Positions 43,284 through 57,488 of a DNA stretch of 58,025 bases are shown piece after piece (position 1 is the first letter of the stretch; each line of letters begins with the position of its first letter). The DNA comes from Gemmatimonadota bacterium. GTDB lineage: Bacteria; JBHIER01; G020348925. The notes beneath the pieces are model-generated. The model worked only from the letters and a program-made list of their open reading frames with translations. It was not told the DNA's origin and ran no database searches. The translations under genes and the position numbers were made by a program. Location: NCBI GenBank assembly GCA_020348925.1, contig CP070758.1:4038558-4096582 (forward strand), read 5' to 3'.

Positions 43284-44468
43284 CTAACCACACACTTTTT
43301 TAAACACACGTAAAAAATTCCCTCCGAGGATGCGCTGTATATCTTCCTCCGAATACTCGCGTTCGAGCAATTTCTTTGTTATGGCGGGCACTTTACTGCA
43401 ATCCTCCAATCCTTTTGGTAAGCTGGTTGTCCCATCAAAATCAGAACCCAAAGCCACATACTCAGAACCAACAAGCTTGACTATGTAATCAATATGATCG
43501 ACAGCCCGGTCAAGAGGCGGTCTGATCGACTGAAACTCGTTGCCTAATAGAGTATTTTTTTCCTCAACATACCGATCACGGTTCCCCTTGTAGACCTCCC
43601 ATAACGAATCGATTTCAGTCAGGTACTTTGTCTCAAGAATATCATACTTGCGGCCAAAGGTGCTGTCTAAAAAACTGGAACAGAAATTAATGCCGATCAC
43701 ACCTCCGTTCCGGGCTATCGCTCGGATCTGATTATCCGTGAGATTTCGAAAATGAGGACACAGATTATAAACACAAGAATGGGAAGCAATTATGGGATCC
43801 TCGGTAGTCTCGATAATATCCCAGAAGGTGCTTTCGGCAACATGGGAGACATCGATAATCACCCCGATCTCATTCATTGTTTTGATTATTTTCCTTCCGA
43901 AATCGGTTAATCCGCCGTGCTGCGGAGCCGTATCCGCGGCAGCATCAGCCCAATCGAGACTCTTGTTCCAGGTTATGGTCATATATCGTACGCCGCGATC
44001 TCGAAACGTTTTCAGTTTTTCAATACTGTTCTCTATCGCATGGCCACCTTCAATAGCAAGGACTGCCGCAATCTTTCCCGATGCGATGATCGCTTCGGCC
44101 TGAGTCCCGGTCCTGGCCACGGCTATCGATTCAGAATTGATTTCGAACTGATCGGACAGGACGTCTATCATTCTATGAATCTTCAAAGCAGAGCTTTCAG
44201 GCGGTACATGCTGGGGATGCACCCAGCAACAAAAAGCCTGTAAATCAATGCCTCCTTCTTTCATGCGGGGAACGTCTATATGTCCCCCCTGCCCTCTCAC
44301 CCCGAGGGGAACACCCTGAATGAGTCGCAGAACTGTGTCGCAGTGAAGATCACAGACGACAGCGCTCTTATGGAGAACTTGGTATTCAAAATTTTCTGAA
44401 ATCGTTGCGACGCAAAAAAAGAGCTCAAAAACAGGGATTAAAAACAGGAGTAAGAGACGCTGTAGCAT
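43284..44468 (-). CDS. Membrane dipeptidase (peptidase M19)
   Basis: This zinc-dependent dipeptidase of the renal-dipeptidase family has 394 residues. Metal-binding and active-site segments are visible: 'VVCDLHCDTVLRL' (His42, Asp44), 'AVLAIEGGHAIE' (bridging Glu), 'GVIIDVSHVAE', 'PIIASHSCVYNL' and 'YVALGSDFDGTTSLP'. An N-terminal hydrophobic stretch ('LLLLFLIPVFELFFCVA') suggests export to the periplasm or membrane anchoring. Likely substrates are dipeptides from peptidoglycan or diet. The ATG start lies just downstream of the terminator at 44491-44536, so the gene has its own transcription start and may lead the minus-strand trio. Confidence 0.92.
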   Translation of the reverse strand: MLQRLLLLFLIPVFELFFCVATISENFEYQVLHKSAVVCDLHCDTVLRLIQGVPLGVRGQGGHIDVPRMKEGGIDLQAFCCWVHPQHVPPESSALKIHRMIDVLSDQFEINSESIAVARTGTQAEAIIASGKIAAVLAIEGGHAIENSIEKLKTFRDRGVRYMTITWNKSLDWADAAADTAPQHGGLTDFGRKIIKTMNEIGVIIDVSHVAESTFWDIIETTEDPIIASHSCVYNLCPHFRNLTDNQIRAIARNGGVIGINFCSSFLDSTFGRKYDILETKYLTEIDSLWEVYKGNRDRYVEEKNTLLGNEFQSIRPPLDRAVDHIDYIVKLVGSEYVALGSDFDGTTSLPKGLEDCSKVPAITKKLLEREYSEEDIQRILGGNFLRVFKKVCG

Positions 44469-44490
44469 AGTTTTTTCTGTAAGCTTTTGA

Positions 44491-44536
44491 AAACAAAAAG
44501 GTTCCTAACCGAAATCCCAGGGTCGGGAACCTTCCA
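44491..44536 (-). terminator. Rho-independent terminator after the small membrane protein gene
   Basis: On the minus strand AAGGTTCC (complement of 44526-44533) pairs with GGAACCTT (complement of 44498-44505), with a partly paired inner GACC/GGTT step. The tract TTTTTGTTTT follows. Confidence 0.75.
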
Positions 44537-44562
44537 TCTTTTCCTCTGAAAACCTCAAACGA

Positions 44563-44751
44563 TCAGATTTCCTCCTCACCTTTTCTGATGAGAGTCAAAG
44601 CGCCCCAGGCGATTGCCACCCAGACGATGGTCCCCAGGTAAAACTTACCGATCAGTGTTGGAACGCCACCGTAGTAGTATGCGATTCCGGCAGGAACAAA
44701 AGAGAGAATTAAAAGGATGAGATAACCCAAAATACGTTTTACGATTCCCAT
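44563..44751 (-). CDS. Small two-helix membrane protein
   Basis: This 62-residue protein has two transmembrane helices ('ILGYLILLILSFVPAGIAYY' and 'FYLGTIVWVAIAWGALTLI') and an acidic tail 'RKGEEEI'. It is supported by a GAGGAG ribosome-binding site and by a terminator directly after it. I do not recognise the family. It stands alone, divergent from the promoter at 44914. Confidence 0.65.
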   Translation of the reverse strand: MGIVKRILGYLILLILSFVPAGIAYYYGGVPTLIGKFYLGTIVWVAIAWGALTLIRKGEEEI

Positions 44752-44913
44752 ATCTGCATAACTCCTCTACCGCAAAGTTGAACCAACTGTCTCCATATAA
44801 TCGGCGGTCATCAAATAAGATATTCTAAGACGTGCACAGTATACAACAAAAATGTGCCATTGTCAAAGGAAAAATGGACCTTTTTGTAAAATTTTTCTAT
44901 ACTCACTTTTTGT

Positions 44914-44942
44914 TTGACAACGGAAAGGGAACATACTATATT
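44914..44942 (+). promoter_or_regulatory. Strong sigma70-type promoter upstream of ecfT
   Basis: TTGACA (44914-44919), a 17-nt spacer and TATATT (44937-44942). Transcription would start near 44949, leaving a leader of about 200 nt before ecfT. Confidence 0.7.
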
Positions 44943-44948
44943 CAATGG

Positions 44949-45151
44949 GACTTACTGCCACTAAGATGTTATGGTATTCCTGAGATCCATTGAAGTGGGG
45001 TTTTGTGGCTCCGACGCTTCACCTCAACTGGAAGGCACAAGTCTCGCGAAGTCGGGGCGTTGGAATTACAGGCCGTCATACATGAGTTTTTACATGTTAA
45101 ATCATTAATAAACAAAATTTTGTAAAATTAACGTTTTTGAAGAATTGAACG
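44949..45151 (+). other. Long 5' leader of ecfT, possibly a structured RNA
   Basis: There is no open frame of note. The segment contains possible helices: TTGAAGTG near 44990 with CACCTCAA near 45028 (one mismatch), and CTCCGAC near 45010 with GTCGGGG near 45052. An AT-rich stretch then leads to the start codon. It matches no riboswitch motif I know. Possibilities are a novel regulatory leader, a separate small RNA, or an ordinary untranslated region. Confidence 0.3.
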
Positions 45152-45952
45152 ATGTTTTCTTTCAATGACATCACAATAGGCCAATACAGAGACACGCGAT
45201 CGATTGTTCATCGACTCGATCCTCGAACCAAATTTTTTATTTTGATTTTTCTCATGATCCCCATCCTGTGCACACAAACGCTCTATTCCCTGACAATAGT
45301 ATCACTCATATGTATGTTGGCGATTCTTTTTGCGAAACTTCCGGCAACAATGATACTGAGAAACCTGCGCCCATTTTTGTGGCTTTTCGGAATCACATGT
45401 GTCCTTCATCTCTTCCTTACTGCGGGCACATCGATACCCCCATTTCCGGTGAAGGGAGTCAATATCACCTTTGAAGGATTGGAAAGAGGTCTTTTCTTTT
45501 CGTTCCGGTTGGCCATTTTTATTGTAGCCGCGGCTCTCTTTTCTCTAACCACTTCTCCAACAGAACTCACTGACAGTGTTGAACATACGTTAAAACCATT
45601 ACGACGGTTCGGACTGCCTGCCCACGAACTGGCCATGATTATGAACATAGCCTTACGGTTCATTCCAACAATTATCGAGGAAGCTGACAGACTGCGAAAA
45701 GCGCAATTGGCCAGAGGTGCCCATTTCTGCGGCGGTTTGATTCGACGAATAAAAGCACTTATCCCGCTGACCGTCCCTCTGTTTCTCTCCGCTTTTCGCC
45801 GGGCCGATGAATTGGCGATAGCAATGGAAGCTCGCTGCTACCGAGGGGGGATAGGTCGTACTCATTTTCAAGTCCGTACGTTAAGTATAAAAGATTATCT
45901 GACAATCTTTTTTATAGGTATCCTGTGCAGTAGTGCCTTTGTGATTCATTGA
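45152..45952 (+). CDS. ecfT: Energy-coupling factor transporter transmembrane protein EcfT
   Basis: EcfT is the membrane coupling subunit of ECF-type vitamin or metal-ion importers. It links ATPase subunits (EcfA) to a substrate-binding S component. The 266-residue protein has several membrane helices and both cytoplasmic coupling motifs: 'RKAQLARGAHFCGG' (Ala-Arg-Gly) and 'AIAMEARCYRGGIGRT' (Ala-Arg-x-x-x-Gly-Gly). The order ecfT-truA is found in many bacteria, but here no EcfA or S-component gene is adjacent, so partners must be elsewhere. The leader is long and has its own promoter. Confidence 0.92.
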   Translation: MFSFNDITIGQYRDTRSIVHRLDPRTKFFILIFLMIPILCTQTLYSLTIVSLICMLAILFAKLPATMILRNLRPFLWLFGITCVLHLFLTAGTSIPPFPVKGVNITFEGLERGLFFSFRLAIFIVAAALFSLTTSPTELTDSVEHTLKPLRRFGLPAHELAMIMNIALRFIPTIIEEADRLRKAQLARGAHFCGGLIRRIKALIPLTVPLFLSAFRRADELAIAMEARCYRGGIGRTHFQVRTLSIKDYLTIFFIGILCSSAFVIH

Positions 45953-45987
45953 GGGAAATGAGAAACCTTCAATGAAAATGAGGTCGT

Positions 45988-46716
45988 ATGAGAACAATAA
46001 AATTACTCATTGAATATGATGGAACCGATTTTTTTGGCTGGCAAGTCCAGGCGGAGAAGCGGACAATTCAAGGAGAACTGGAAACTGCCCTGCGGACTTT
46101 AGTCAACAGAGACGTCAATCTTATAGGCGCGGGTCGAACCGATACCGGAGTCCATGCCTTGGGCCAAGTTGCCCATTTTAAGACGGATTCTGAACTCGAC
46201 GTCCTAACGATGTGCCGTGGGCTGAATAGCCTCCTTCCAGAAGATATTGTTGTTCATGATGTTCAAGAGGTACCGTCAGATTTTCACGCTCGCTTCGCTG
46301 CCAAATCCAGACGATACCAATATCGTATCTCTCGAGGGAGAAAGGCCCTCGGTCGGCAATTCAGCTGGTATCTCAACTATCAATTAAACGTTTCAACAAT
46401 GGCACAGGCCGCGGAGCTGCTTCGAGGAAAACATGATTTTCGTTCCTTCTGCTCAGCGGATACGGAAACAAGGGATTACACATGCACTCTGTTCAACATC
46501 AAATGGGCCTCGGAGAATAATACTCTGACTCTCGAAGTCGAGGCTGACCGGTTTCTGCAACACATGGTTCGGACCATTGTGGGAACATTGATTGAGATCG
46601 GACGGGGTCGGAAGGATCCCTCGGATGTGAACACAATTTTGCAGGCACAGGACAGACGGAAGGCCGGGCCGACTGCCCCGGCTCAAGGCCTCTGTCTCAT
46701 GGAGGTAACATATTGA
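45988..46716 (+). CDS. truA: tRNA pseudouridine(38-40) synthase TruA
   Basis: TruA converts uridines 38-40 in the anticodon arm of tRNAs to pseudouridine. The 242-residue protein has 'LLIEYDGTDFFGWQVQ', the catalytic-Asp motif 'GAGRTDTGVHALGQVAHF', 'RRYQYRI' and 'FLQHMVRTIVGTLIEIGRG'. Length is normal. It starts 36 nt after ecfT with GAGG upstream, in the same transcript. Confidence 0.96.
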   Translation: MRTIKLLIEYDGTDFFGWQVQAEKRTIQGELETALRTLVNRDVNLIGAGRTDTGVHALGQVAHFKTDSELDVLTMCRGLNSLLPEDIVVHDVQEVPSDFHARFAAKSRRYQYRISRGRKALGRQFSWYLNYQLNVSTMAQAAELLRGKHDFRSFCSADTETRDYTCTLFNIKWASENNTLTLEVEADRFLQHMVRTIVGTLIEIGRGRKDPSDVNTILQAQDRRKAGPTAPAQGLCLMEVTY

Positions 46717-46776
46717 AAAAACTCAGAAAAATCCAAACTCTCACTCAGAGCGGCCGTCTCCAAAGGAGGAAAATAG

Positions 46777-47430
46777 ATGAAAATCTTCATTGACACAGCA
46801 AATGTTTCTGAAATTCGCGAAGCCGTAAGCTTGGGTATCATCGACGGTGTCACGACAAATCCGACTCTGTTGTCCAAAGAGAAGGGAACGTTTCGTGAAA
46901 TACTGATCGAGATCTGCTCTCTCGTTGACGGGCCCATCAGCGCCGAGGTCGTCAGTGAGCAATCCGAGGGAATGGTTGAAGAAGCCAGAGAATTGGCAAA
47001 AATCGGAAAGAACATCACAATAAAAGTCCCCATGAGTACCGAAGGAATGAAGGCCGTCACAATCCTCAGCCAGGAGTCCATATGGACCAATATGACCCTC
47101 GTTTTTTCACCGAGCCAGGCCATTCTCGCCGCCAAAGCAGGGGCACGCTTTATCAGCCCCTTCGTCGGCCGCGTCGACGACATGAGTCACTTCGGCATGG
47201 ATTCCGTCCGCCAAATAGTGACCATCTATGAAAATTACGGATTTGATACCGAAATCATCGTGGCCAGTATCAGACATCCGCTTCATGTGGTGGAAGCAGC
47301 TCTTGCAGGGGCCCACATCGCAACCGTTCCCTTCAAGGTAATTCAACAGTTAGTGAAACATCCTTTAACTGATATCGGAATAAAACGTTTTCAGGAAGAC
47401 TGGGAAAAAGTAACAAAAAAAACCTCGTAA
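46777..47430 (+). CDS. fsa: Fructose-6-phosphate aldolase / transaldolase-like protein
   Basis: This 217-residue TIM-barrel protein belongs to the short transaldolase (TalC/MipB/FSA) group. '[13 protein letters not shown]' and '[12 protein letters not shown]' are at the N terminus, the Schiff-base Lys83 is in '[16 protein letters not shown]', and '[10 protein letters not shown]' and '[12 protein letters not shown]' follow. Such enzymes either transfer dihydroxyacetone units (transaldolase) or cleave fructose 6-phosphate; sequence alone does not decide. AAAGGAGG precedes the ATG. The htrA gene follows after 8 nt. Confidence 0.93.
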
Positions 47431-47438
47431 TCGAAACA

Positions 47439-48692
47439 ATGGAACAGAAGTCACATACACGATCATCAAGATTCAGAGTCCTCGTCTTCGGAATCATGGT
47501 CGTCCTGGCAATAATTCTCATCGGTCTGAATACTGTCGGACGTAAGCACGATACGGCACCGTCAAACCTTCGTTCAACCGGAGTGCCTCAAACCGTTCAC
47601 CTCGACTCCACTCATGTCAGGAAACCTTACCAAAGTGAAACCTTGCAATCGAATCAGGACGAGATTACGACGTCACGTCGGAATGCCATTGTCCGTGCTG
47701 TCGAAAAAGTGGAGCCGGCCGTCGTGAGCATTACGGTGACCCAGATCATTCGAACAAGGTTGTTTCCGTCCATTTTTGACGATCCTTTTCTGAGACATTT
47801 CTTCCCCGAATTCCGCAGGGAATATCAAAGAAAAGTGTACGGCATTGGATCGGGCTTTATCATCAGTGAGGATGGCTATGTCTTGACCAACGAACATGTG
47901 ATCAGTAGCGCTCAGGAGATCGTGGTCACCCTTACAGACGGGACGCAATCAAAGGGGAAAGTCGTCGGCTCTGATTCGCGGCTCGACGTCGCCTTACTCA
48001 AGATCGACGAAAGAAACCTCCCATATGTGACTCTCGGCTGCTCCGATGATCTCATTATTGGCGAATGGGCCATTGCGATTGGCAATCCCTTCGGATTCGT
48101 CTTGGACAAATCGAAACCGACCGTAACGATTGGCGTTGTCAGCGCCTTCCACAGGGATTTCGAATCTCATCCCGGAGAGAGAGTCTATAAAGACATGATA
48201 CAGACCGATGCCGCCATCAATCAGGGGAACAGCGGTGGTCCCCTGGTCAACTCAAACGGTGAGGTCATTGGAATCAATACGTTCATCTTCACCGGCGGAC
48301 AATATTCTGAGGGATCCATCGGGATCGGATTTGCCATTCCTATCAACAGAGCAAAAAAGGTTGCCGATGAGCTGCTCCAGTACGGCCGTATCAGAGATTT
48401 CTGGACCGGAATCTCCATTCAGAATATCGACTGGCTCATCGCTCAGAGCCTCGACTTACAATCAACGAATGGGGCCATCATCTCTCAAATAGAATCCGAC
48501 AGTCCTGGCGAGCTCGCCGGGCTTCAAATCGGCGACATTATTCTCAAAGTGAATACAAAAATCGTGCAAGATACCGATGACGTTATCGACGCATTCGCGG
48601 AGGGACAGGTTGGGGACATCTATAACTTGACTATTCAGCGACGGGGAAAAGAGATGAGCATCCCCCTCAAGTTGGAAGAGGTGACGCCATAA
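47439..48692 (+). CDS. HtrA/DegP-like periplasmic serine protease
   Basis: This 417-residue envelope quality-control protease has an N-terminal transmembrane anchor ('VLVFGIMVVLAIILIGL', about 14-30). A trypsin-like domain follows with the triad His153 ('YVLTNEHVI'), Asp183 ('SRLDVALLKI') and Ser265 ('INQGNSGGPLV'). One PDZ domain lies near the C terminus (about 325-415: 'GAIISQIESDSPGELAGLQI', 'GDIILKVN'). One PDZ and a membrane anchor resemble DegS or the Gram-positive HtrA more than two-PDZ DegP. It is closely linked to fsa, and purB follows after 63 nt. Confidence 0.93.
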   Translation: MEQKSHTRSSRFRVLVFGIMVVLAIILIGLNTVGRKHDTAPSNLRSTGVPQTVHLDSTHVRKPYQSETLQSNQDEITTSRRNAIVRAVEKVEPAVVSITVTQIIRTRLFPSIFDDPFLRHFFPEFRREYQRKVYGIGSGFIISEDGYVLTNEHVISSAQEIVVTLTDGTQSKGKVVGSDSRLDVALLKIDERNLPYVTLGCSDDLIIGEWAIAIGNPFGFVLDKSKPTVTIGVVSAFHRDFESHPGERVYKDMIQTDAAINQGNSGGPLVNSNGEVIGINTFIFTGGQYSEGSIGIGFAIPINRAKKVADELLQYGRIRDFWTGISIQNIDWLIAQSLDLQSTNGAIISQIESDSPGELAGLQIGDIILKVNTKIVQDTDDVIDAFAEGQVGDIYNLTIQRRGKEMSIPLKLEEVTP

Positions 48693-48755
48693 AGACAGCA
48701 GGACGACAGTATCATTCTTTCTGCAACGGAATTCATTCTTCAAGGAGTAGCAGGA

Positions 48756-50054
48756 GTGATTGAGCGTTACACACTCCCTCGCATGGGAGCTGTTTGGACG
48801 GCCGAAAACAGATTTCAAAAGTGGCTCGACATCGAGATTTTGGCCTGTGAGGCCCATGCAGAACTGGGAATCGTACCGAAGGAGATGGCGCAGGCCATAC
48901 GGCAAAAAGCCACCTTCAAGGTAGAGCGCATCAACGAGCTTGAGGAGAAAAAGACAAAACATGATGTGATTGCTTTTTTAACAAATGTTGCCGAAAGTTT
49001 AGGGGATGAATCCCGCTACCTCCATCTTGGCATGACCTCCTACGATGTGGTGGACAACGCTCTTGTGCTTCAAATTCGAGAGGCCTGTGATATTCTCCTT
49101 GAGGATCTCGCGGGGTTGAAAGAAGTTCTCAAGACAAAGGCGTTGGAACATAGGAAAACAGTCATGATGGGCCGTACCCACGGCGTTCATGCCGAACCCA
49201 TCACCTTTGGTCTCAAAATGGCATTGTGGTTCGACGAAACAAAACGAAACATCGAAAGGCTCAAGCAGGCCCGGGCGACCATTGCCTATGGCAAGATTTC
49301 CGGGGCTGTAGGGACCATGGCCCAAATTGATCCCTTTGTTGAAGAGTACGTCTGCCGTAAATTGGGATTGAACCCTGCGCCGGTCTCCTCCCAAATCCTG
49401 CAGCGAGATCGTCATGCTCAATACATGACGACCCTGGCCATCATCGCCAGTTCTCTGGAGAAGTTCGCCACCGAGATTCGCAATCTCCAGCGCACCGAAA
49501 TACGTGAAGTCGAAGAACCTTTCGCCAAAGGTCAGAAAGGATCTTCGGCAATGCCACACAAACGAAATCCCATCCTGTGCGAACGAATTTCGGGTTTGGC
49601 CCGGGTCATTCGCAGCAACGCCTTTGTCTCTTTGGAAAATGTGGCTCTGTGGCACGAGCGCGATCTTACCAACTCGGCAACGGAGCGGGTTGTTATCCCC
49701 GATAGTTCCATCCTCCTCAACTATGTTATCACGAAATTTACACATGTCATGAAAAATTTAACTGTGTATCCTGAGCGAATGCGACACAATATCGAAGCAA
49801 CAGGAGGTATTATTTTTTCCCAATCTATCCTGATCGAGCTGGTGAAGAAAGGTTTGACGAGAGAAGAGGCCTACGCGCTCGTCCAAGAGAATGCCATGAC
49901 ATCTTGGCAGCAGACCTCAAACTTTTTAGAGCTCCTCCTCGGGGACGAAAAAATTCGATCCTATTTATCCGAAGACGAGATTCGGGCCTGTTTCAATCTC
50001 GATCACCATCTTAAAAATATCGATTATCTTTTCAAACGTACTGGATTAGGATAA
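48756..50054 (+). CDS. purB: Adenylosuccinate lyase
   Basis: PurB cleaves SAICAR to AICAR plus fumarate and adenylosuccinate to AMP plus fumarate in purine synthesis. The 432-residue protein starts at GTG 48756 with AAGGAG upstream. It contains 'KHDVIAFLTNVAE', 'RYLHLGMTSYDVVDNAL', 'MMGRTHGVHAEPITFGLKMA', the signature 'KGSSAMPHKRNPILCE' and 'SSILLNYV'. Length and motifs are typical. It is followed after 26 nt by a PurC-like gene, a functionally expected neighbour. Confidence 0.96.
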   Translation: MIERYTLPRMGAVWTAENRFQKWLDIEILACEAHAELGIVPKEMAQAIRQKATFKVERINELEEKKTKHDVIAFLTNVAESLGDESRYLHLGMTSYDVVDNALVLQIREACDILLEDLAGLKEVLKTKALEHRKTVMMGRTHGVHAEPITFGLKMALWFDETKRNIERLKQARATIAYGKISGAVGTMAQIDPFVEEYVCRKLGLNPAPVSSQILQRDRHAQYMTTLAIIASSLEKFATEIRNLQRTEIREVEEPFAKGQKGSSAMPHKRNPILCERISGLARVIRSNAFVSLENVALWHERDLTNSATERVVIPDSSILLNYVITKFTHVMKNLTVYPERMRHNIEATGGIIFSQSILIELVKKGLTREEAYALVQENAMTSWQQTSNFLELLLGDEKIRSYLSEDEIRACFNLDHHLKNIDYLFKRTGLG

Positions 50055-50080
50055 GAAGAATTACCGAAAGGAGGCACTTT

Positions 50081-50779
50081 GTGGACAAAAAGGAGTTAAT
50101 CTGTGAGGGACAATCGAAGAAAGTCTATGCCACCTCAGATCCAAGCATGTGCATCCTCGAATTTCTCGATAAGATCCCTGCCGGGAAAAAAAAGAAAACG
50201 GTGAAGAAAAGGGCAACGAGCAGCACCCAGATCTCTGCACGGCTCTTTCTCTATCTCAAAAGTTTTCGAGTTTTAAACCATTTCTTTAAAACTCTCAATG
50301 ACAAAGAAATGTTGGTGAAAAAGCTGGACATGTTTCCTTTCCGGGTCGTGGTTCGAAACATAGCCACTCCCGATTTTGCGAAAAGATACGGCTTCGAAAA
50401 GAACAGTCCCTTGACACCACCGATTTTCGAATTTTACCCGAAAGCGTCGGATCTCAAAGAAGTGGCTATGAACGATTCCCATGTTTCCGCTCATGGTTTG
50501 GCCACGCAAGAGGAACTCAGACGGATAAAAGCGATTTCGACCCGTATCAACGCAGTCTTGGTCCCCTTCTTTCTTCGCCGGAAGCTCCGCTTGATCGAGT
50601 ATTACCTTGAATTTGGGAAAGCCGAGGATAAGATTGTGCTTGGTGACGAGATCTCTCCCGATACAATCGTCTTATGGGACATCACAGACGATCCTGAGGC
50701 GAAAAAAGACATATTCAGTATCTTTTCGAAAACTCCTGAGAAAGGGTACACTGAAATTTTAAAGAGAGTTACCCAATAG
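50081..50779 (+). CDS. PurC-like (SAICAR synthetase family) protein with altered active-site residues
   Basis: This 232-residue protein follows the SAICAR synthetase fold along its whole length: 'EGQSKKVYAT', 'MLVKKLDMFPFRVVVRN', 'PPIFEFYPKASDL', 'YYLEFGKAEDKIVLGDEISP' and 'DTIVLWD'. Several normally conserved positions differ. GKAK reads GQSK, the VVRNxxAGSxxKR loop reads VVRNIATPDFAKR, LVDFKLEFG reads LIEYYLEFG (Lys lost), and SPDxxRLWD reads SPDTIVLWD (Arg lost). Its place directly after purB suggests a purine role, but it may be a paralogue with another substrate. The start is GTG with AAAGGAGG upstream. Confidence 0.85.
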   Translation: MDKKELICEGQSKKVYATSDPSMCILEFLDKIPAGKKKKTVKKRATSSTQISARLFLYLKSFRVLNHFFKTLNDKEMLVKKLDMFPFRVVVRNIATPDFAKRYGFEKNSPLTPPIFEFYPKASDLKEVAMNDSHVSAHGLATQEELRRIKAISTRINAVLVPFFLRRKLRLIEYYLEFGKAEDKIVLGDEISPDTIVLWDITDDPEAKKDIFSIFSKTPEKGYTEILKRVTQ

Positions 50780-50902
50780 AAGCTCACTGGAACTTTGGAA
50801 AAAGTCACTCAATGGAATCTCACTGTGATTTTGGGAACATAGCCTGCGAAAGGTTTACGTGGCCTTGGGAAAAAAGTCACAGAGGAGATGTGAGATCGAG
50901 CA

Positions 50903-51544
50903 ATGGCCAATAATCGTTCCGTATTAACAATGATCCTCGTTGGTTTGGCGATCCTTTTGTTCGTTCTCACTATGCTTACTCGTCATCTTGTTCTGTTGTG
51001 CATTTTTTCACTGTATATTGGTGTTTTACTCTTCGTTCGATGGTCTCTTCGAGACCCGGAGCGAACCATTCCCCGCGGAAGCGGTCTTATCCTTTCGGCT
51101 GCAGACGGACGTGTGTGCTCTCTGGAACGGGTGAACGAACACCTCTTTCTGGGAGGAAATGGAATTGCCGTGGGGGTCTATCTGTCCCTCCTCGACGTCC
51201 ATATCAACCGAAACTCCGCGTCAGGGGTTGTTGCATTTCTTTCGCATAAACCGGGGAAATTCTTACCGGCTTTTCGAAAGAAATCCTCTGAATACAATGA
51301 ACAACAGATCATCGGTATCGAAAGTGATCGCGGTCGAATACTCATTAAACAAATTGCTGGTTCTTTTGCCAGACGCATTGTCTGCCGCCTGTGCCTGGGA
51401 GATATTGTACAGGCCGGAGAGCGTTTTGGTATGATTACTTTCGGTTCAAGAGTAGAACACTTCCTCCCAGTCGACACAGAGATCAAAGTGAAGATCGGTG
51501 ATAGAGTGAGAGCTGGTGAAAGTATCATCGGGGTGTTGTCATGA
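50903..51544 (+). CDS. psd: Phosphatidylserine decarboxylase (short, archaeal-type proenzyme)
   Basis: Psd converts phosphatidylserine to phosphatidylethanolamine at the membrane. The 213-residue form has one or two N-terminal membrane helices ('ILVGLAILLFVLTML', 'LVLLCIFSLYIGVLLFV'). Also present are 'RDPERTIPRGSGLILSAADG', 'YLSLLDVHINRNSASGVV' and the self-cleavage region 'GMITFGSRVEHFLP', where the Gly-Ser bond would yield the pyruvoyl group. Length fits the short Psd class. Its TGA overlaps the pssA ATG by 4 nt, coupling the two consecutive pathway steps. Confidence 0.93.
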   Translation: MANNRSVLTMILVGLAILLFVLTMLTRHLVLLCIFSLYIGVLLFVRWSLRDPERTIPRGSGLILSAADGRVCSLERVNEHLFLGGNGIAVGVYLSLLDVHINRNSASGVVAFLSHKPGKFLPAFRKKSSEYNEQQIIGIESDRGRILIKQIAGSFARRIVCRLCLGDIVQAGERFGMITFGSRVEHFLPVDTEIKVKIGDRVRAGESIIGVLS

Positions 51545-52278
51545 AAAAAACAGGCTGGGCACTCCCGTATTTTTTTACCGTATCCAATCTCTTCTGCGGA
51601 TTCTTGGCCGTAGCCTATAGTCTCAACGAACAATATGTCGCTGCCTCGTGGCTCATTATTGCTGCTGGTTTTCTGGATGGTCTCGACGGAAAGATTGCTC
51701 GTTTTACAGGATCTTCAACGCGATTTGGTGTCGAGTTTGATTCGATGGCCGACCTCATATCTTTCGGGGTCGCCCCGGCTGTCCTTCTCTACAAATATCA
51801 GTTTTATCGATTGGAGTTTTTGGGTTGGATTCTCATGTTCTTCTATATTGCAGCCGGAGCGTTTCGCCTGGCCAGATTTAATCTCCACTTCAAAGGAGTT
51901 CGCGAGGGATATTTTCGAGGGATACCCATCACCATGGCGGGCATGACGATTGCCGCACTCATCATTTTTACAAGCAACGGCATTACGATAGTCGGAACTA
52001 TTGGTACAACAACCGTACTCACGCTTCTTCTCTCCATCCTCATGATAAGTACCATTCGCTACGAGGGACTGCCCGGATTTGCTCTGACGACCCGCAAGGA
52101 AAAAGCCAAGGTTCTTATTCTAACACTCAGTGCTGTCGTGATCGTGATAAACCCCACCTTCACTTTTTTCCCTCTGATGGTCTGTTACATTCTTTGCGGT
52201 ATCTTCGAATGGAGCTTCAGTATCGTCAAGAGAACCGTAAAGCCTTACATCCATAGCACTCGAAATCGAAATCTTTGA
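51541..52278 (+). CDS. pssA: CDP-diacylglycerol--serine O-phosphatidyltransferase
   Basis: PssA makes phosphatidylserine, the substrate of the Psd encoded just upstream. The 245-residue polytopic membrane protein carries the CDP-alcohol phosphotransferase signature: 'DGLDGKIARF' followed by 'GVEFDSMAD', that is D-G-x2-A-R-x8-G-x3-D-x3-D in form. 'SNLFCGFLAV' lies at the N terminus and about seven hydrophobic segments follow. It overlaps psd and is followed after 9 nt by the DUF4321 gene. Confidence 0.94.
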   Translation: MKKTGWALPYFFTVSNLFCGFLAVAYSLNEQYVAASWLIIAAGFLDGLDGKIARFTGSSTRFGVEFDSMADLISFGVAPAVLLYKYQFYRLEFLGWILMFFYIAAGAFRLARFNLHFKGVREGYFRGIPITMAGMTIAALIIFTSNGITIVGTIGTTTVLTLLLSILMISTIRYEGLPGFALTTRKEKAKVLILTLSAVVIVINPTFTFFPLMVCYILCGIFEWSFSIVKRTVKPYIHSTRNRNL

Positions 52279-52287
52279 GGAACAACC

Positions 52288-52575
52288 ATGCACTATAAAA
52301 AAAGCAACTTAAGTATTCTTCTCATTTTCATCATCGTCGGACTCATCATTGGCAGCGCAGTAGGTGAACTCTTGGCCTTCATCCTCCCTCAGGGGAGTGT
52401 CGTCGAGATGTTTTTCACACATCCTATCATCCGCCCTGAATTTGGTCCGGCCACACTCAATCTCATTGTGGCCACAATCACTTTCGGATTCTCCCTGAAG
52501 GTGAATAGTATTAGTGTATTGGGTGTTATTTTTTCTGTTGTTTTGTTGAGAAGATATCTTTTCTTTTATAGATGA
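52288..52575 (+). CDS. DUF4321-family small membrane protein
   Basis: This 95-residue protein has two transmembrane helices ('ILLIFIIVGLIIGSAVGEL' and a C-terminal 'ISVLGVIFSVVLL') enclosing 'FGPATLNLIVATITFGFSLK'. That pattern is typical of the DUF4321 family, which often lies beside tatA and cell-wall genes; its function is unknown. It is tightly linked to pssA upstream and to tatA downstream. Confidence 0.8.
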   Translation: MHYKKSNLSILLIFIIVGLIIGSAVGELLAFILPQGSVVEMFFTHPIIRPEFGPATLNLIVATITFGFSLKVNSISVLGVIFSVVLLRRYLFFYR

Positions 52576-52607
52576 AAAAAACTGTTTTGAAAAAGGAGGT
52601 GTACACA

Positions 52608-52808
52608 ATGTTTGGTGGTGCCATTGGACCAGGTGAATTGATTATAGTCTTACTCGTGATTCTCCTTCTCTTTGGCGCGAAACGCCTCCCGGAACTCGCT
52701 CGTGGTATGGGTAAGGGGATCCGGGAGTTTAAAAAAGCGACGAGCGGCATCGAGGAAGAGATGAAGCTGGAGGAGAAGACGGAGGAGAAGGAAAAGAAGG
52801 CCGGCTGA
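52608..52808 (+). CDS. tatA: Sec-independent protein translocase subunit TatA/E
   Basis: TatA forms the pore of the twin-arginine pathway, which exports folded proteins. The 66-residue protein has the short membrane helix 'PGELIIVLLVILLLFGAKRL' then 'PELARGMGKGIREFKKA', the classical amphipathic helix, and a charged Glu/Lys tail. The ATG at 52608 is chosen because AAAGGAGGTG stands upstream and the protein then starts 'MFGGAIGPGE' as in other TatA proteins. An upstream in-frame ATG at 52572 overlaps the DUF4321 stop. No tatC is in view. Confidence 0.93.
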   Translation: MFGGAIGPGELIIVLLVILLLFGAKRLPELARGMGKGIREFKKATSGIEEEMKLEEKTEEKEKKAG

Positions 52809-52837
52809 AGAACTCACCACTGAGAGCATTCGATAGC

Positions 52838-52880
52838 GCGGGTTGGATATAACATGATTTTGCCATGTTTTCCAACCCGC
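52838..52880. terminator. Large hairpin after tatA
   Basis: A perfect 10-bp stem, GCGGGTTGGA (52838-52847) with TCCAACCCGC (52871-52880), encloses an inner ACATG/CATGT pairing. There is no T tract, so it may be a transcript-end hairpin of another kind. It marks the end of the core-gene run. Confidence 0.6.
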
Positions 52881-53575
52881 AAAGTCGGACGGTTCTGTGG
52901 ATGATCCCGCATCTTCCGCATCACCGCTGAGAGAAGGATTTTTCCTTTCAACACTCTTTTTTCAACAGGTCATAGAGATTCACAAAAAAGCAGCCAGTCT
53001 CCTTTTTGCGATCTCACTCTCCTCTTACTCAGGGAGTTAAAAAATAAGCGCATGAAGCCATACCTGTTCGGGGATTCTGAAATGGCTCAACATCTCTAAT
53101 TTTTTTTGCAACAATTTTTCTCGTTTTATTTCATTCACCGACTGTCAAAAAGCTTATCAGTTTTTAATCCAATTGTAATTGAAGCAATAAGCTGCGTAAC
53201 GACGCCAACACAAAGCAACCTTTCGTCTGGTTCCGAACATAGTGCCATACCGGCTCCCGCTATGGCTAATGTCGCAAGCGAATTGATCAAAATATCACCT
53301 TGTTTTTTTATTAGCTTGCTTTATTCATGAACTGTCATTTCGGCCGAAGTGCCGGAATCTCCTCGATTGGTGTAACGGATCCAAAACTCAGGAGATTCCG
53401 GTATAAATCCGGAATGACATAGTCTTCATTTGTGGAAGATATCGTGGTAAAAAGTTCAAATGCAGTGTTTATTTTAACTATATAAATTAAATACGTTACG
53501 TCGCTGTTGCATTGATTGTATGAATAATCCAGGTTAGCAAGATGCACACCGAGTGACATTCCGCGGGATTCTCCA
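52881..53575. other. Intergenic region between tatA and the envelope-protein cluster
   Basis: Apart from the palindromic repeat at 53333-53419, I see no supported gene. A frame at 53106-53330 (plus) has no start signal or recognisable features. On the minus strand 53420-53570 has an open stretch ('SRGMSLGVHLANLDYSYN') that could be debris of an outer-membrane protein, since it runs straight into the repeat. Confidence 0.4.
53333..53419. repeat. VIPDL-type palindromic repeat
   Basis: Ends TGTCATT (53333) and AATGACA (53419) are inverted. The arms GCCGGAATCTCCT and AGGAGATTCCGG also pair, so the whole 87 bp can fold on itself. The minus-strand translation 'YVIPDLYRNLLSF' is the hallmark of a class of dispersed palindromes often mis-annotated as protein in bacterial genomes. 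Confidence 0.75.
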
Positions 53576-53791
53576 TTAACAACCTTGTAATATGGGCAAA
53601 ATCACCGAACCAAAATTGTTAATGGCTTGAAGTGAATAGAACCTGTTTCTCCCCTTCACATCAATCACCTCACCCACCCGCTCGCTGATGACAACGATTT
53701 TTCCTCCCTCTTCCTGGGCATGAAGTTTACGAAAAAAGAGGCAAATAATGCTCATAGATAACACTATCAGAAAGGGTATTCTCGGAAACAT
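53576..53791 (-). pseudogene. Truncated copy of the glycine-zipper envelope family (N-terminal part only)
   Basis: The 71-residue frame has a signal peptide ('FPRIPFLIVLSMSIICLFF', then 'AQEEGG') and 'GKIVVISERVGEVIDVKGRN'. This matches the start of the full-length protein at 56508-57488 ('GEIVVISERVGESIDVEERN'). It stops soon after 'GSVILPILQGC', and the remaining 230 residues of the family are absent. The ATG at 53791 has AGAGGAAG upstream. It may be a decayed duplicate or, less likely, a short functional secreted peptide. Confidence 0.6.
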
Positions 53792-53813
53792 GATACACTT
53801 CCTCTGAACCTTT

Positions 53814-54504
53814 TTAAAAGGCAAGCAAAGACAAAAATGAAAAGCCATTCTCACTATTGGGCACGATACCTATTTGAATTTTTTCTAACGGTACCTCCTC
53901 CCAGTACTGGCCCCACCCAAACAGCTGGGCAATAGCACCGAGGATCAAGCCGATTTCCCCGAAGAGTCCAGCCCCCAGAAGAATTGCGTCACGCATGGCT
54001 AAATCTCCTTCCCGAGTGCTCCCACCTATGAATCCTCCTATCACCATTCCCGCCACAAAGCCATAGGTTGCATTTCTCCCAGTTGCTCCAATAATAGCAC
54101 CATTAACAGTGCCGCCAATGGCTGCACAGAGTTTCGCGAGGGGGTCAACGTCAACGAATGTTCCGACGAGATAACCTCCGGCAGCACCAACCAGAAGACC
54201 AATGCCTGCACCCTTCAATCCGTTCTTTGTATTTATCCCCTATCCACGACTCCGACTCATATCAAATCTCTCCACCAAAGTGATCGGCACAACAATCGAA
54301 GCCGATAAGGAATCAGTTTTTCAACTGAAGGGTGTCGGCATCTAAGGATACAAAGGACTCAATAATTTCTCCACTCTGAGAGATAGGTGTCGAAATCCGG
54401 ATCCGGGAGCCTGGGGCAAGTTCCAACTCTTCTTGAGCATCGAGATCAACAAAGAATGTAAAAAGGAGCATAATAATTGGTAAAATGACAGTTGAAATTC
54501 TCAT
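53814..54504 (-). pseudogene. Frameshifted copy of the glycine-zipper envelope family
   Basis: The first part (54504 to 54313) encodes a signal peptide and 'APGSRIRISTPISQSGEI' with 'SLDADTLQLK'. The second part (to 53814) encodes 'NGLKGAGIGLLVGAAGGYLV', 'IGATGRNATYGFVAGMVIGG' and 'EEVPLEKIQIGIVPNSENGF'. Together they align with the central and C-terminal parts of the protein at 56508-57488. They are separated by one extra A in the run at 54317-54321 and by an in-frame TAG at 54240-54242. Reading through both restores 'TDSLSASIVVPITLVERFDM'. The 'IVVISERVGE' section is missing in this copy. AAGGAG precedes the ATG at 54504. Confidence 0.75.
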
Positions 54505-54562: not shown

Positions 54563-56404
54563 TCAATTCGAACTGATTAGAAGCGAAATAATTGAAACGT
54601 CTGTTAAGCCAATTTGTGTCCAACTCTCCCCATTGTCAGTAGAGCAAAAGATCCCACCTCCTAAAATGCCAGTACCAGCAAAGATATGCCCGCTTGAATT
54701 GATGGTAAGCGAAAGAACATAAGTGCCCGTTGGGCCATTCGTAAGTTCCGTCCATTCTTCACCGTTGTTCGTTGAACGAAAGATGACGAAACTGCCCACA
54801 AAGATATGTCCGCTCGAATTTACGGCAAAAGAAAAAACAGGATGATCAGATAAGCCAATCTGAGTCCAGTTGTCTCCGTTGTCTGTGGAACGAAAGACAC
54901 CATCCAACTCGGTACCGACAAAAAGATGTCCCTCCGAATTAATTGCAATTCGATCGACATCATCATCATAACCGGTCAATTCCCATAAATTACCATCGTC
55001 AGTTGAGCGAAAAACACCTGAGCGAGTCCCAACGAAAATGTAGCCACTTGTATTGAAAACAATAGAACGGGTATCTCTTCCTGTTATACTGGTTTGCTCC
55101 CAACTTTCCCCGTTGTCAATGGAGCGAAAGAGCCCCGCATCATCCAACCCAGCAAATATGTCCCCACTCGAATGAATAGCGATAGTTAAGATATCTTCCA
55201 TTGTACCGTTCGTGGTGGGCAAACCGTTAATCAACTGTGTCCAGTTATCCCCATTGTCTGTAGAACGAAAGATGCCCCAACGAGCAGTTCCGGCAAAGAT
55301 GTCTCCGATGAAATTGACAGCCAGAGTAAAAACAGAAACTATTGGTAGACCAATATTATTCTGTGTCCAACTCTCTCCATTGTCAGTGGAGTTAAAGATA
55401 CCTTTGCCATCGGTCCCTGCAAAGATATCCCCGTTTGAATTGGAAGCAAAACAGAGTATATCTATATCTGGCAATCCGTCATTGATTTGTGTCCAACTAT
55501 CTCCATTGTCAGTGGAGCGAAAAACTCCACCCTCAGCACCAGCAAAAATGTTATCACGTGAATCAATGCAAAGAGTTCGAACATTATAGGCATTTGACAG
55601 GTTGATCTGCGACCAGTAAGCACCGTTATTCGTGGAGCGATACACACTATTATAAGCCCCGGCAAAAATGTGTCCGTGAGAGTTGATAGCAAGAGACCAG
55701 ACAGATCTACTCAAAGCGGTTCTCGTCCAACTGTCCCCATTATCAGTAGATAGATACACACCGCTGCCCCAAGTTCCGGCAAAGATATCCCCTTCTGAAT
55801 TGACAGCAAAAGATTCAACACTGTCAAACATTGGCAAGGCCGCTACCAAGTGGGTCCAGTTATCTCCATTATCAGTGGAACGATAGATACCATCCCCATC
55901 AGTTCCTGCAAAGATGTCCCCATTCGAATTAATGACCAAGGAGTTAATATTATATCCGGTTGGTTGAGTTCCCCTCCAGCTCTCCCCATTATCAGTAGAG
56001 CGAAAGACACCGCCACCATTTGTCCCAGCAAAGATGTTCCCAGCTGGATTAATGGCAAGTGTAAAGACAAAAGAAGGTGCCATACCGTAATTAATCTGAG
56101 TCCAACTATTTCCATTATCTAAGGAACGATAAACACCCTTCCCAGATGTTCCGGAAAAGATATGCCCACGCGAATTTATGGTCAGTGTATTGACCACAAT
56201 ATACTCTGGTAAACCATTATTGCATTGTTTCCAGTTATCACCATTGTCAGTGGATCGTAGGACACCCTCTTCACCAGTACCGGCAAAGATAGTCTCGATC
56301 AAACTTCCATTAGAATATGTCGGATTTTTGTTGCATCCTGAAGTCACAAAGGTGAGAGCAAGCAATACGACTATCAACACCGATTGATACATGGTACGTT
56401 TCAT
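54563..56404 (-). CDS. Lipoprotein of 14 BNR/YCF48-like repeats
   Basis: The 613-residue protein starts with a lipoprotein signal ('VLIVVLLALTFVTSGC', lipobox Thr-Ser-Gly-Cys). The rest is 14 repeats by my count of about 40 residues with the core 'IFAGTDGDGIYRSTDNGDNW', as in BNR and sortilin-like propellers. This would give two seven-bladed propellers or one large ring. It has no sorting domain; attachment is through lipid. I chose the ATG at 56404 because AAAGGAGG lies eight bases upstream; the ATG at 56410 is too close to it, and a longer frame extends into non-coding sequence. Ligand and role are unknown. It sits within the glycine-zipper cluster. Confidence 0.88.
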   Translation of the reverse strand: MKRTMYQSVLIVVLLALTFVTSGCNKNPTYSNGSLIETIFAGTGEEGVLRSTDNGDNWKQCNNGLPEYIVVNTLTINSRGHIFSGTSGKGVYRSLDNGNSWTQINYGMAPSFVFTLAINPAGNIFAGTNGGGVFRSTDNGESWRGTQPTGYNINSLVINSNGDIFAGTDGDGIYRSTDNGDNWTHLVAALPMFDSVESFAVNSEGDIFAGTWGSGVYLSTDNGDSWTRTALSRSVWSLAINSHGHIFAGAYNSVYRSTNNGAYWSQINLSNAYNVRTLCIDSRDNIFAGAEGGVFRSTDNGDSWTQINDGLPDIDILCFASNSNGDIFAGTDGKGIFNSTDNGESWTQNNIGLPIVSVFTLAVNFIGDIFAGTARWGIFRSTDNGDNWTQLINGLPTTNGTMEDILTIAIHSSGDIFAGLDDAGLFRSIDNGESWEQTSITGRDTRSIVFNTSGYIFVGTRSGVFRSTDDGNLWELTGYDDDVDRIAINSEGHLFVGTELDGVFRSTDNGDNWTQIGLSDHPVFSFAVNSSGHIFVGSFVIFRSTNNGEEWTELTNGPTGTYVLSLTINSSGHIFAGTGILGGGIFCSTDNGESWTQIGLTDVSIISLLISSN

Positions 56405-56507
56405 TTTCATTCCCTCCTTTTCTTGCCGTAATGGCATCAGAATATTAGAACAACCACATACCTCTTCATTTGCAAAATTGATTTTTATCTTCAGGTGTCT
56501 TGCTGCG

Positions 56508-57488
56508 TTAAAAGGCAAACGACGCCGAAAGTGAAAAACCTTTCTCACTATTGGGAGCGACACTTATTTGAATTCTGTCCAATGGTACTTCTTCCCACCT
56601 CTCACCAGAGCTTGTAGCTCCGACGATGGCACCAAAAATCATGCCGATTTGGCCAAAAAATCCTGCTCCCATAAGGGATAGAGACCCTTCAGGTAAATCT
56701 GCCTCCACATCCGAGCCCACAGACCCTATTATAAATCCTATTAAAGCACCAGCAAGGAAACCATAGGTCGCATTCTTCCCAGTTGCCCCAATAAGGAAAC
56801 CGTCAAGACCGCCGATGCCTCCCCCAACAACCCCATAAATCAACCGTGGGTCGTCGCTCATAGCTGCGACGGTAAAGGTACCGGCACCACCTATAAGAAA
56901 CCCGATCCCGGCGCCTTTCAGCCCGTTTTTGCCACGATGAACCCGACCACGACTAATGTAAAAACTCTCCACCAAACCGAGCGGTATTGCCATTCGATCC
57001 GGTGAAATATCAGTTTTCAATATGAGAGTGTCGGATTCCAGCACCACAACAGTTCCCTCAAGCTTTCTCACATATAAATTTGGAGCTGAGATGCGAACAC
57101 GGGTGCCCGGAACGATGGGTCGTTTTTTCTTATATAGATATTTCTTTGTTTGTATCTCCTCGAAGTGGTCAATATGTTCTATGTAATTCTCTATTCTCGA
57201 TTCTACCTCGGGTATTCGCTTGACCTTTTCTTCACCCGTTGTTTCATCGAGATAGGTTATCTTCAAGATGTAACTCTCGTCAGGTAACCTGAGCAAAACC
57301 GCTGATTGGAATCCTTCAAAGGTTGGGAACAGACCGTACGTGTTTCTCTCCTCCACATCGATTGACTCGCCCACACGCTCGCTGATGACAACGATCTCGC
57401 CTTCCTCTTTCTGAGCACAAACACGCTCAGAGGACAGAACAACTATGCTGATAAACAGCAATACGTGGAAAAGAAGTCTTTCAAACAT
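56508..57488 (-). CDS. Exported glycine-zipper protein, full-length family member
   Basis: This 326-residue protein has a signal peptide (about 1-25, ending 'ERVCAQ'). A soluble domain follows with 'GEIVVISERVGESIDVEERN', 'FPTFEGFQSAVLLRLPDESY' and 'ILKITY', a form seen in hypothetical envelope proteins of FCB bacteria. Next come an OB/SH3-like 'PGTRVRISAP ... ESDTLILKTD' segment and a C-terminal half rich in Gly with glycine-zipper helices ('GLKGAGIGFLIGGAG', 'GFLAGALIGFIIGSVG'). The end is 'EEVPLDRIQISVAPNSEKGF'. Membrane insertion of the zipper part is likely. AAAGGAGG is nine bases before the ATG at 57488. Function is unknown. Confidence 0.78.
   Translation of the reverse strand: MFERLLFHVLLFISIVVLSSERVCAQKEEGEIVVISERVGESIDVEERNTYGLFPTFEGFQSAVLLRLPDESYILKITYLDETTGEEKVKRIPEVESRIENYIEHIDHFEEIQTKKYLYKKKRPIVPGTRVRISAPNLYVRKLEGTVVVLESDTLILKTDISPDRMAIPLGLVESFYISRGRVHRGKNGLKGAGIGFLIGGAGTFTVAAMSDDPRLIYGVVGGGIGGLDGFLIGATGKNATYGFLAGALIGFIIGSVGSDVEADLPEGSLSLMGAGFFGQIGMIFGAIVGATSSGERWEEVPLDRIQISVAPNSEKGFSLSASFAF

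Follow-up and report, generated by a model that had tools for sequence, protein, structure and literature searches.

The locus and its genes

The gene considered here, purC', lies at positions 50081..50779 (+) of the window, by which we mean the whole 58,025-nucleotide stretch of DNA that was analysed. It encodes a SAICAR-synthetase-like protein of 232 residues with an eroded CAIR/aspartate site; the start codon is GTG, and a Shine–Dalgarno-like sequence (AAAGGAGG, 50067..50074, +) can be read 6 bases before it. As a sequence-only reading of this DNA had pointed out, the gene comes directly after purB (48756..50054, +; adenylosuccinate lyase, Pfam Lyase_1 and ADSL_C), from which it is separated by 26 bases. 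After a gap of 123 bases follow psd, for phosphatidylserine decarboxylase (50903..51544, +; PF02666, 135.6 bits), and a pssA-like gene for a CDP-alcohol phosphatidyltransferase (51541..52278, +; PF01066, 78.4 bits), these two ORFs overlapping by 4 bases. The final syntenic gene of the operon encodes a DUF4321 protein (52288..52575, +; PF14209, 36 bits), and has the same place in the order of locus L078, there with purQ in between. Upstream of purB lie a gene for a degP-like serine protease with a PDZ domain (47439..48692, +; Trypsin_2 and PDZ; syntenic in relatives) and two ORFs that serve as syntenic markers: one at 46777..47430 (+), which we take to be fsa/transaldolase-like and whose syntenic copies are 59–69% identical, and one at 45988..46716 (+), presumably truA-like, which is likewise syntenic with relatives. 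No Rfam element was found in positions 44000–54500 of the window. Beyond the operon, a 666-residue ORF on the opposite strand (54563–56563, −) is made up of repeated RSTDNGxxWT units, and presumably encodes something like a BNR-type beta-propeller exoprotein.

The operon order in the window is degP-purB-purC'-psd-pssA, and in other bacteria a canonical purC is found at the same place. The fuller arrangement, truA-(fsa)-degP-(purB)-purC-psd-pssA-(purQ), is seen in many genomes and also on the KSB1 contig L046, where purC is canonical, which indicates that the window gene occupies the ancestral place of purC. By synteny, purC' is the original purC of the operon, displaced by a long-type PurC, and not a fresh duplicate. 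On codon usage it scores 0.049 bits per codon, second lowest among the seven operon genes.

The protein matches Pfam PF01259 over nearly its full length (171.4 bits), but against the NCBIfam equivalog for purC, TIGR00081, it scores 123.2 bits, under the cut-off of 189.9. A structural model built from four sequences (mean pLDDT 88) has the PurC fold, superimposing on 3nua_B with Z 31.0 and rmsd 2.1 over 228 residues and on 2ywv_A with TM 0.89. Comparison with solved PurC structures, which had been suggested as a check, thus gives a close fit (Z 30–31).

Dismantling of the active site

The sequence-only reading had recognized the gene as a member of the PurC family that has lost conserved active-site residues, and each of its substitutions is present in the translation: GKAK has become GQSK, VDFKLEFG is IEYYLEFG, SPDTCRLWD is SPDTIVLWD and the xAxGS that follows VVRN is IATPD, while GDEISPD is retained. 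The observation therefore stands, and the extent of the loss is larger than was first described. The glutamate of the PxEVVxRN motif is arginine, the aspartate of DPMxN is glutamate, D133 is serine, the KG..N motif reads RA..S, the arginine of DKDRFR is serine, and in the alignments the DATAFNG loop (T40 to N43) lacks two residues. Residue numbers were carried over to the family motifs by way of the human and E. coli PurC sequences. In human PAICS numbering the substitutions include E97R, D137E, K191Y, R215V and R232S. According to a study of human PAICS (PMC9376930), E97 and D137 are ligands of Mg, and Thr40, Lys191, Lys228 and Arg232 are ligands of aspartate; only Lys228 of the latter four is retained in purC'. 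Similarly, among the CAIR contacts given for E. coli PurC in PMC3261824 (Arg94, Ser100, Asp175, Arg199 and Arg215, E. coli numbers), Arg94 alone remains. Over 33 site residues purC' agrees with a canonical reference, the KSB1 protein of L046, at 13, the corresponding range for canonical proteins being 28–33.

With its fold retained and its catalytic-site residues lost, purC' has the features by which a pseudoenzyme is recognized, and we infer from its residues that catalytic activity has been lost. The likeliest reading is of a pseudo-SAICAR-synthetase whose retained role is not catalysis and probably involves nucleotide binding.

A complete PurC elsewhere in the genome

PF01259 genes occur at two places of the genome, a single contig, namely 117553 and 4088656. 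The first, at L001, is the second, canonical purC that one alternative of the sequence-only reading had called for: a 305-residue long-type PurC within purN-purC-purH, which scores 422.9 bits against PRK13961 (cut-off 251) and aligns lengthwise with yeast SAICAR synthetase, its motifs intact. It belongs to the same Pfam family as purC', but to another subfamily (Ade1 type) with a complete site. A purB query gave a single match in the genome, the purB of the window; no dedicated second purB accompanies purC'.

A class of eroded short PurC proteins

Searches of the phyla of five of our genome handles (40, 7, 9, 39 and 5 genomes) showed that weak short copies alongside another PurC are common there. 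In 329 of the 386 genomes searched there is a PF01259 match and in 22 there is more than one among the matches listed, which indicates that two copies are uncommon. The table of short-type PurC proteins holds 114 entries, from a sample that was enriched on purpose for genomes with eroded copies, is no census and includes a subset of the weak copies. By our own cut, 60 are eroded (at most 23/33 site residues; three of them are fragments), 46 are canonical (at least 28/33), three are intermediate (G321, G456 and G469) and five form a separate third type. The recurrence of a dismantled site in 60/114 short PurC proteins is no chance pattern. Glu97 and Asp137, the Mg B/C ligands, both replaced in the window protein, are retained together with K191 and R232 in 46/46 canonical proteins, and the eroded proteins keep none of these four (30 proteins), one (26) or two (4); the 33-residue list used for the split contains the four residues themselves. 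The replacements are varied, 13 different residues being found at E97 and 14 at D137 in the eroded proteins. We found no earlier report of an eroded PurC paralogue in the open-access literature, which was the scope of that search, subscription papers lying outside it.

A separate observation concerns the arginine of VVRN that contacts CAIR (E. coli Arg94), at which 30/60 eroded proteins have an aromatic residue or histidine (Y 14, W 9, H 7). The change appears in more than one lineage and looks convergent.

Another PF01259 copy is present in 47/60 eroded genomes and in 10/42 canonical ones (Fisher p 6e-8, on related sequences that are not independent). For the 42, three named contigs were set aside, as was the second copy of G436, and the three intermediates, each with another copy, were left out of the test; labels were assigned by hand, a small number of these additional copies are truncated by contig ends, and that of G422 is fused to a regulator. 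An independent-pairs test of erosion against the presence of another PurC on the tree gave no significance, there being too few pairs. Among the 13/60 eroded genomes in which no second PurC was found, nine are less than 90% complete, three are 90% complete, and G045 is 97% complete; the protein of G045 retains E97 and D137. In the family f267 a long copy is present in 6/7 genomes while the short copy is still canonical (28–30/33), an arrangement that looks like the first stage of the process.

What is retained and what is lost

Among the 51 eroded operon-lineage proteins, loss is unevenly distributed over the site. The ATP-side residues K19, H74, K131, E193 and D207, a set picked after the table had been viewed, are kept at 0.92–1.00 (mean 0.96), and the 14 residues on the CAIR/aspartate/MgB/C side are kept at a mean of 0.23; 43 other conserved columns are kept at 0.68, from which the substrate side differs with Mann–Whitney p 1.3e-5. 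The window protein follows this division, with 5/5 ATP-side and 3/14 substrate-side residues, and by this pattern purC' would be expected to bind ATP. H74 (L046 numbering) is, by motif, the counterpart of the adenine-binding histidine of Mycobacterium abscessus PurC (PMC6501894). Y65, R158 and R173 (L046 numbering), residues characteristic of the operon lineage and rare in canonical PurC proteins from elsewhere (0.06–0.23), persist in 0.88–1.00 of its eroded proteins. The window protein has R173 and Y65, but Ala in place of R158 and Phe in place of Y69, a further position conserved in the lineage. In clade i, six proteins encoded behind purB in G119, G257 and their kin, the ATP side is mostly lost as well, so that ATP binding is not universal; this clade may represent a different story.

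The eroded genes in relatives are not decaying and are under strong purifying selection. Usable estimates of dN/dS (NG86) came from ten pairs of eroded copies within a genus, at 0.029–0.126, and from three f52 pairs, at 0.19–0.25; six further pairs were saturated and left out. Where purB could be compared (nine of the ten pairs have both values), the eroded gene has the lower dN/dS in 5/9, as in G215/G073 (0.043, against 0.082 for purB) and G430/G431 (0.041 against 0.071), while in three G119/G384/G426 pairs it lies above purB (0.11–0.13 against 0.05–0.10). A peptide-pattern search of the genome contigs found no close relatives of the window protein, whose end branch is long (0.8–0.87). From the dN/dS of its relatives we infer probable purifying selection on the window copy also; its ORF is intact and has a ribosome-binding site.

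History and neighbourhood of the eroded genes

Two trees were built without the site columns, one quick and one careful (66 rows). The window protein falls inside an all-eroded group of 26–27 rows in both (SH-aLRT 99 in the quick tree; 97/98 in the careful one), and in the careful tree a group of f153 and f268 is sister to the canonical f267 (98/97). Membership of the groups differs between the trees, f247 being placed with f52 in one and with the window group in the other. An AU test rejected a single clade for these two main eroded groups, A and B (p 0.006), which implies two or more losses of catalysis within the operon lineage. Monophyly of operon groups A, B and C together with G045 could not be rejected at the 0.05 level (p 0.053), nor could that of A with C (p 0.37), and the claim is therefore limited to at least two origins, A and B. 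Clade i would be one further loss if its separate place in the quick tree holds.

The most constant neighbour of the eroded gene is psd/pssA, with purB next. Downstream psd is present in 50/60 eroded loci, the remaining ten being made up of the six clade i loci and of four close to contig ends; upstream purB is present in 45/60, the 15 without it comprising four f52 loci and eleven of f247 (one at a contig edge). In G393 (f247) no match to the window-type PurB was found anywhere in the genome at E 1e-20, and in G051 and G193 the only match is a divergent PurB located elsewhere. The eroded gene thus stays beside psd when purB departs.

A probable displaced enzyme with a proposed second function

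We consider it probable, at about 0.6, that purC' is a pseudo-SAICAR-synthetase, probably able to bind ATP, that remained when another PurC took over catalysis and has been kept for a non-catalytic role. A long-type PurC, probably obtained by horizontal acquisition, would have taken over SAICAR synthesis, and the takeover would have freed the CAIR/aspartate site from selection. What would have preserved the old protein is a task other than catalysis that it was already performing and that needed the fold, probably with ATP or ADP bound, such as that of a nucleotide-responsive partner of, or scaffold for, an operon product. Loss of the site, presence of a normal PurC elsewhere and selection on eroded copies across phyla together suggest that such a second job probably exists.

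We propose, more tentatively, a bolder version. SAICAR synthetase is generally regarded as a single-purpose enzyme of purine synthesis. Possibly the operon PurC moonlighted while it was still an enzyme, responding to ATP/ADP and so linking the purine state to phospholipid synthesis; on arrival of the other PurC the CAIR/aspartate half would have been discarded and the moonlighting half kept, independently in several lineages.

Rather doubtful, in our view, is a special form of the displaced pseudoenzyme, in which purC' would be an inactive subunit that joins the active long-type PurC, or PurB, in a complex and modulates it. This would account for the co-occurrence of an active PurC and for the purB upstream in 45/60 loci. 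Such behaviour is ascribed to prozymes, paralogues that have no catalysis of their own but activate a partner, as with trypanosome AdoMetDC, and purC' resembles them as a dead homologue retained beside an active one. Prozymes have a partner, however, and for purC' this is only putative: the active PurC varies in subfamily from genome to genome (PRK13961 type, PRK12607 type or PurC–PurE fusion), and would be a poor constant partner, while f247 and f52 have no adjacent purB.

Alternatively, though we think it unlikely, purC' might be a neofunctionalised enzyme, an ATP-dependent ligase or kinase for some other substrate. The retained K19, H74, K131, E193 and D207 and the strong purifying selection on relatives would suit it, and there is a precedent in PrfC, a SAICAR synthetase homologue that acts in pyrazofurin biosynthesis (PMC8724604); the PurC homologues of that pathway use a pyrazole substrate. 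There, as in the window, a divergent PurC accompanies a PurB; but the formycin and pyrazofurin sets are extra ones, belong to antibiotic pathways and have a proposed substrate (PMC8724604), whereas the window has the genome's only purB in a housekeeping operon, with no second purB or biosynthetic cluster beside purC'. Most eroded proteins have neither Mg ligand at the phosphoryl-transfer site, and the varied replacements at E97 and D137 do not suggest one new substrate. As the substrate-side positions vary between families, lost substrate binding is the better fit. Of the alternative raised in the sequence-only reading, a paralogue with a different reaction beside a normal purC elsewhere, the divergent protein and the normal purC are borne out, but the different reaction seems unlikely.

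Two further readings ranked low. That a displaced purC is slowly becoming a pseudogene is improbable: erosion is indeed centred on a site no longer needed, to the point of 13/33 residues in the window copy, and f267 and the intermediates G456, G469 and G321 resemble early stages, but 57/60 eroded ORFs have 219–295 residues (the other three being short or cut by contig ends), they span whole families and phyla, close pairs have dN/dS of 0.03–0.13, similar to or under that of purB in most, and the ATP side and many core columns are retained. Least probable is that the site is rearranged and the protein still a working SAICAR synthetase, a reading that would explain the 13/60 eroded genomes with no second PurC found, the 97% complete G045 included, but has against it the complete normal PurC in the window genome and the replacement of all of E97, D137, K191 and R232, Mg and aspartate ligands (PMC9376930). 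A clade sharing the losses, which the sequence-only reading had said would overturn its view if the clade were proven active, does exist, but any SAICAR synthetase activity in it is hypothetical and 47/60 of the genomes have another PurC.

In these families a gene assigned to SAICAR synthetase by Pfam can hardly encode that enzyme, although its conservation is roughly as strict as that of purB, and the data suggest that PurC has a second function which has gone unnoticed. The repeated, independent loss of catalysis would isolate that function, the residues common to all eroded copies being those that it needs. It also follows that a purC match is unsafe for calling purine prototrophy in these phyla.

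Relation to other PurC proteins

Short bacterial PurC (TIGR00081/PF01259; 2ywv, 3nua, 2gqr) shares with purC' the whole-chain fold (Z 30–31, TM 0.89), the length, the operon position beside purB and the ATP-side residues; purC' differs in lacking Mg, CAIR and aspartate ligands, in scoring under the NCBIfam cut-off and in having another PurC in the genome. In Thermococcus species, as described in PMC3261824, there are two purC-like genes near purine genes, one copy being suspected inactive. The window genome is similar in having a second purC-like gene, but the doubt in Thermococcus concerns truncation, whereas purC' is a full-length ORF in which the site has been replaced residue by residue across families.

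Other forms of PurC were also seen. In five genomes (G119, G384, G257, G423 and G424) the third type, of approximately 265 residues, is found (L074, 6477–7277; L076, 5874–6674; L080, 3510–4298), with fixed changes (A for the G of the KG motif, R for the N of the RN motif and G for D212); it retains E97, D137, K191 and R232, and is probably active. In L135 (G422:C1:575100-579800) an ORF at 943–2739 encodes 598 residues, a sigma-54-activator-like N-terminal half being joined to a PurC without its first ~70 profile positions; this may be a real fusion, a deletion or an assembly fault. A bacterial PurC–PurE fusion is encoded at 1395–2780 of L134 (G345:C1:3778900-3783700), with a PRK12607-like part at residues 3–298 and PurE at 307–457; the domain order is that of animal PAICS, and ORFs of similar length are common in f247. 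Finally, L137 (G400) and L099 (G328) encode PRK12607-like proteins of ~350 residues that score 134.1 and 128.1 against a cut-off of 371, and in family f261 a protein of this type is the sole PurC found.
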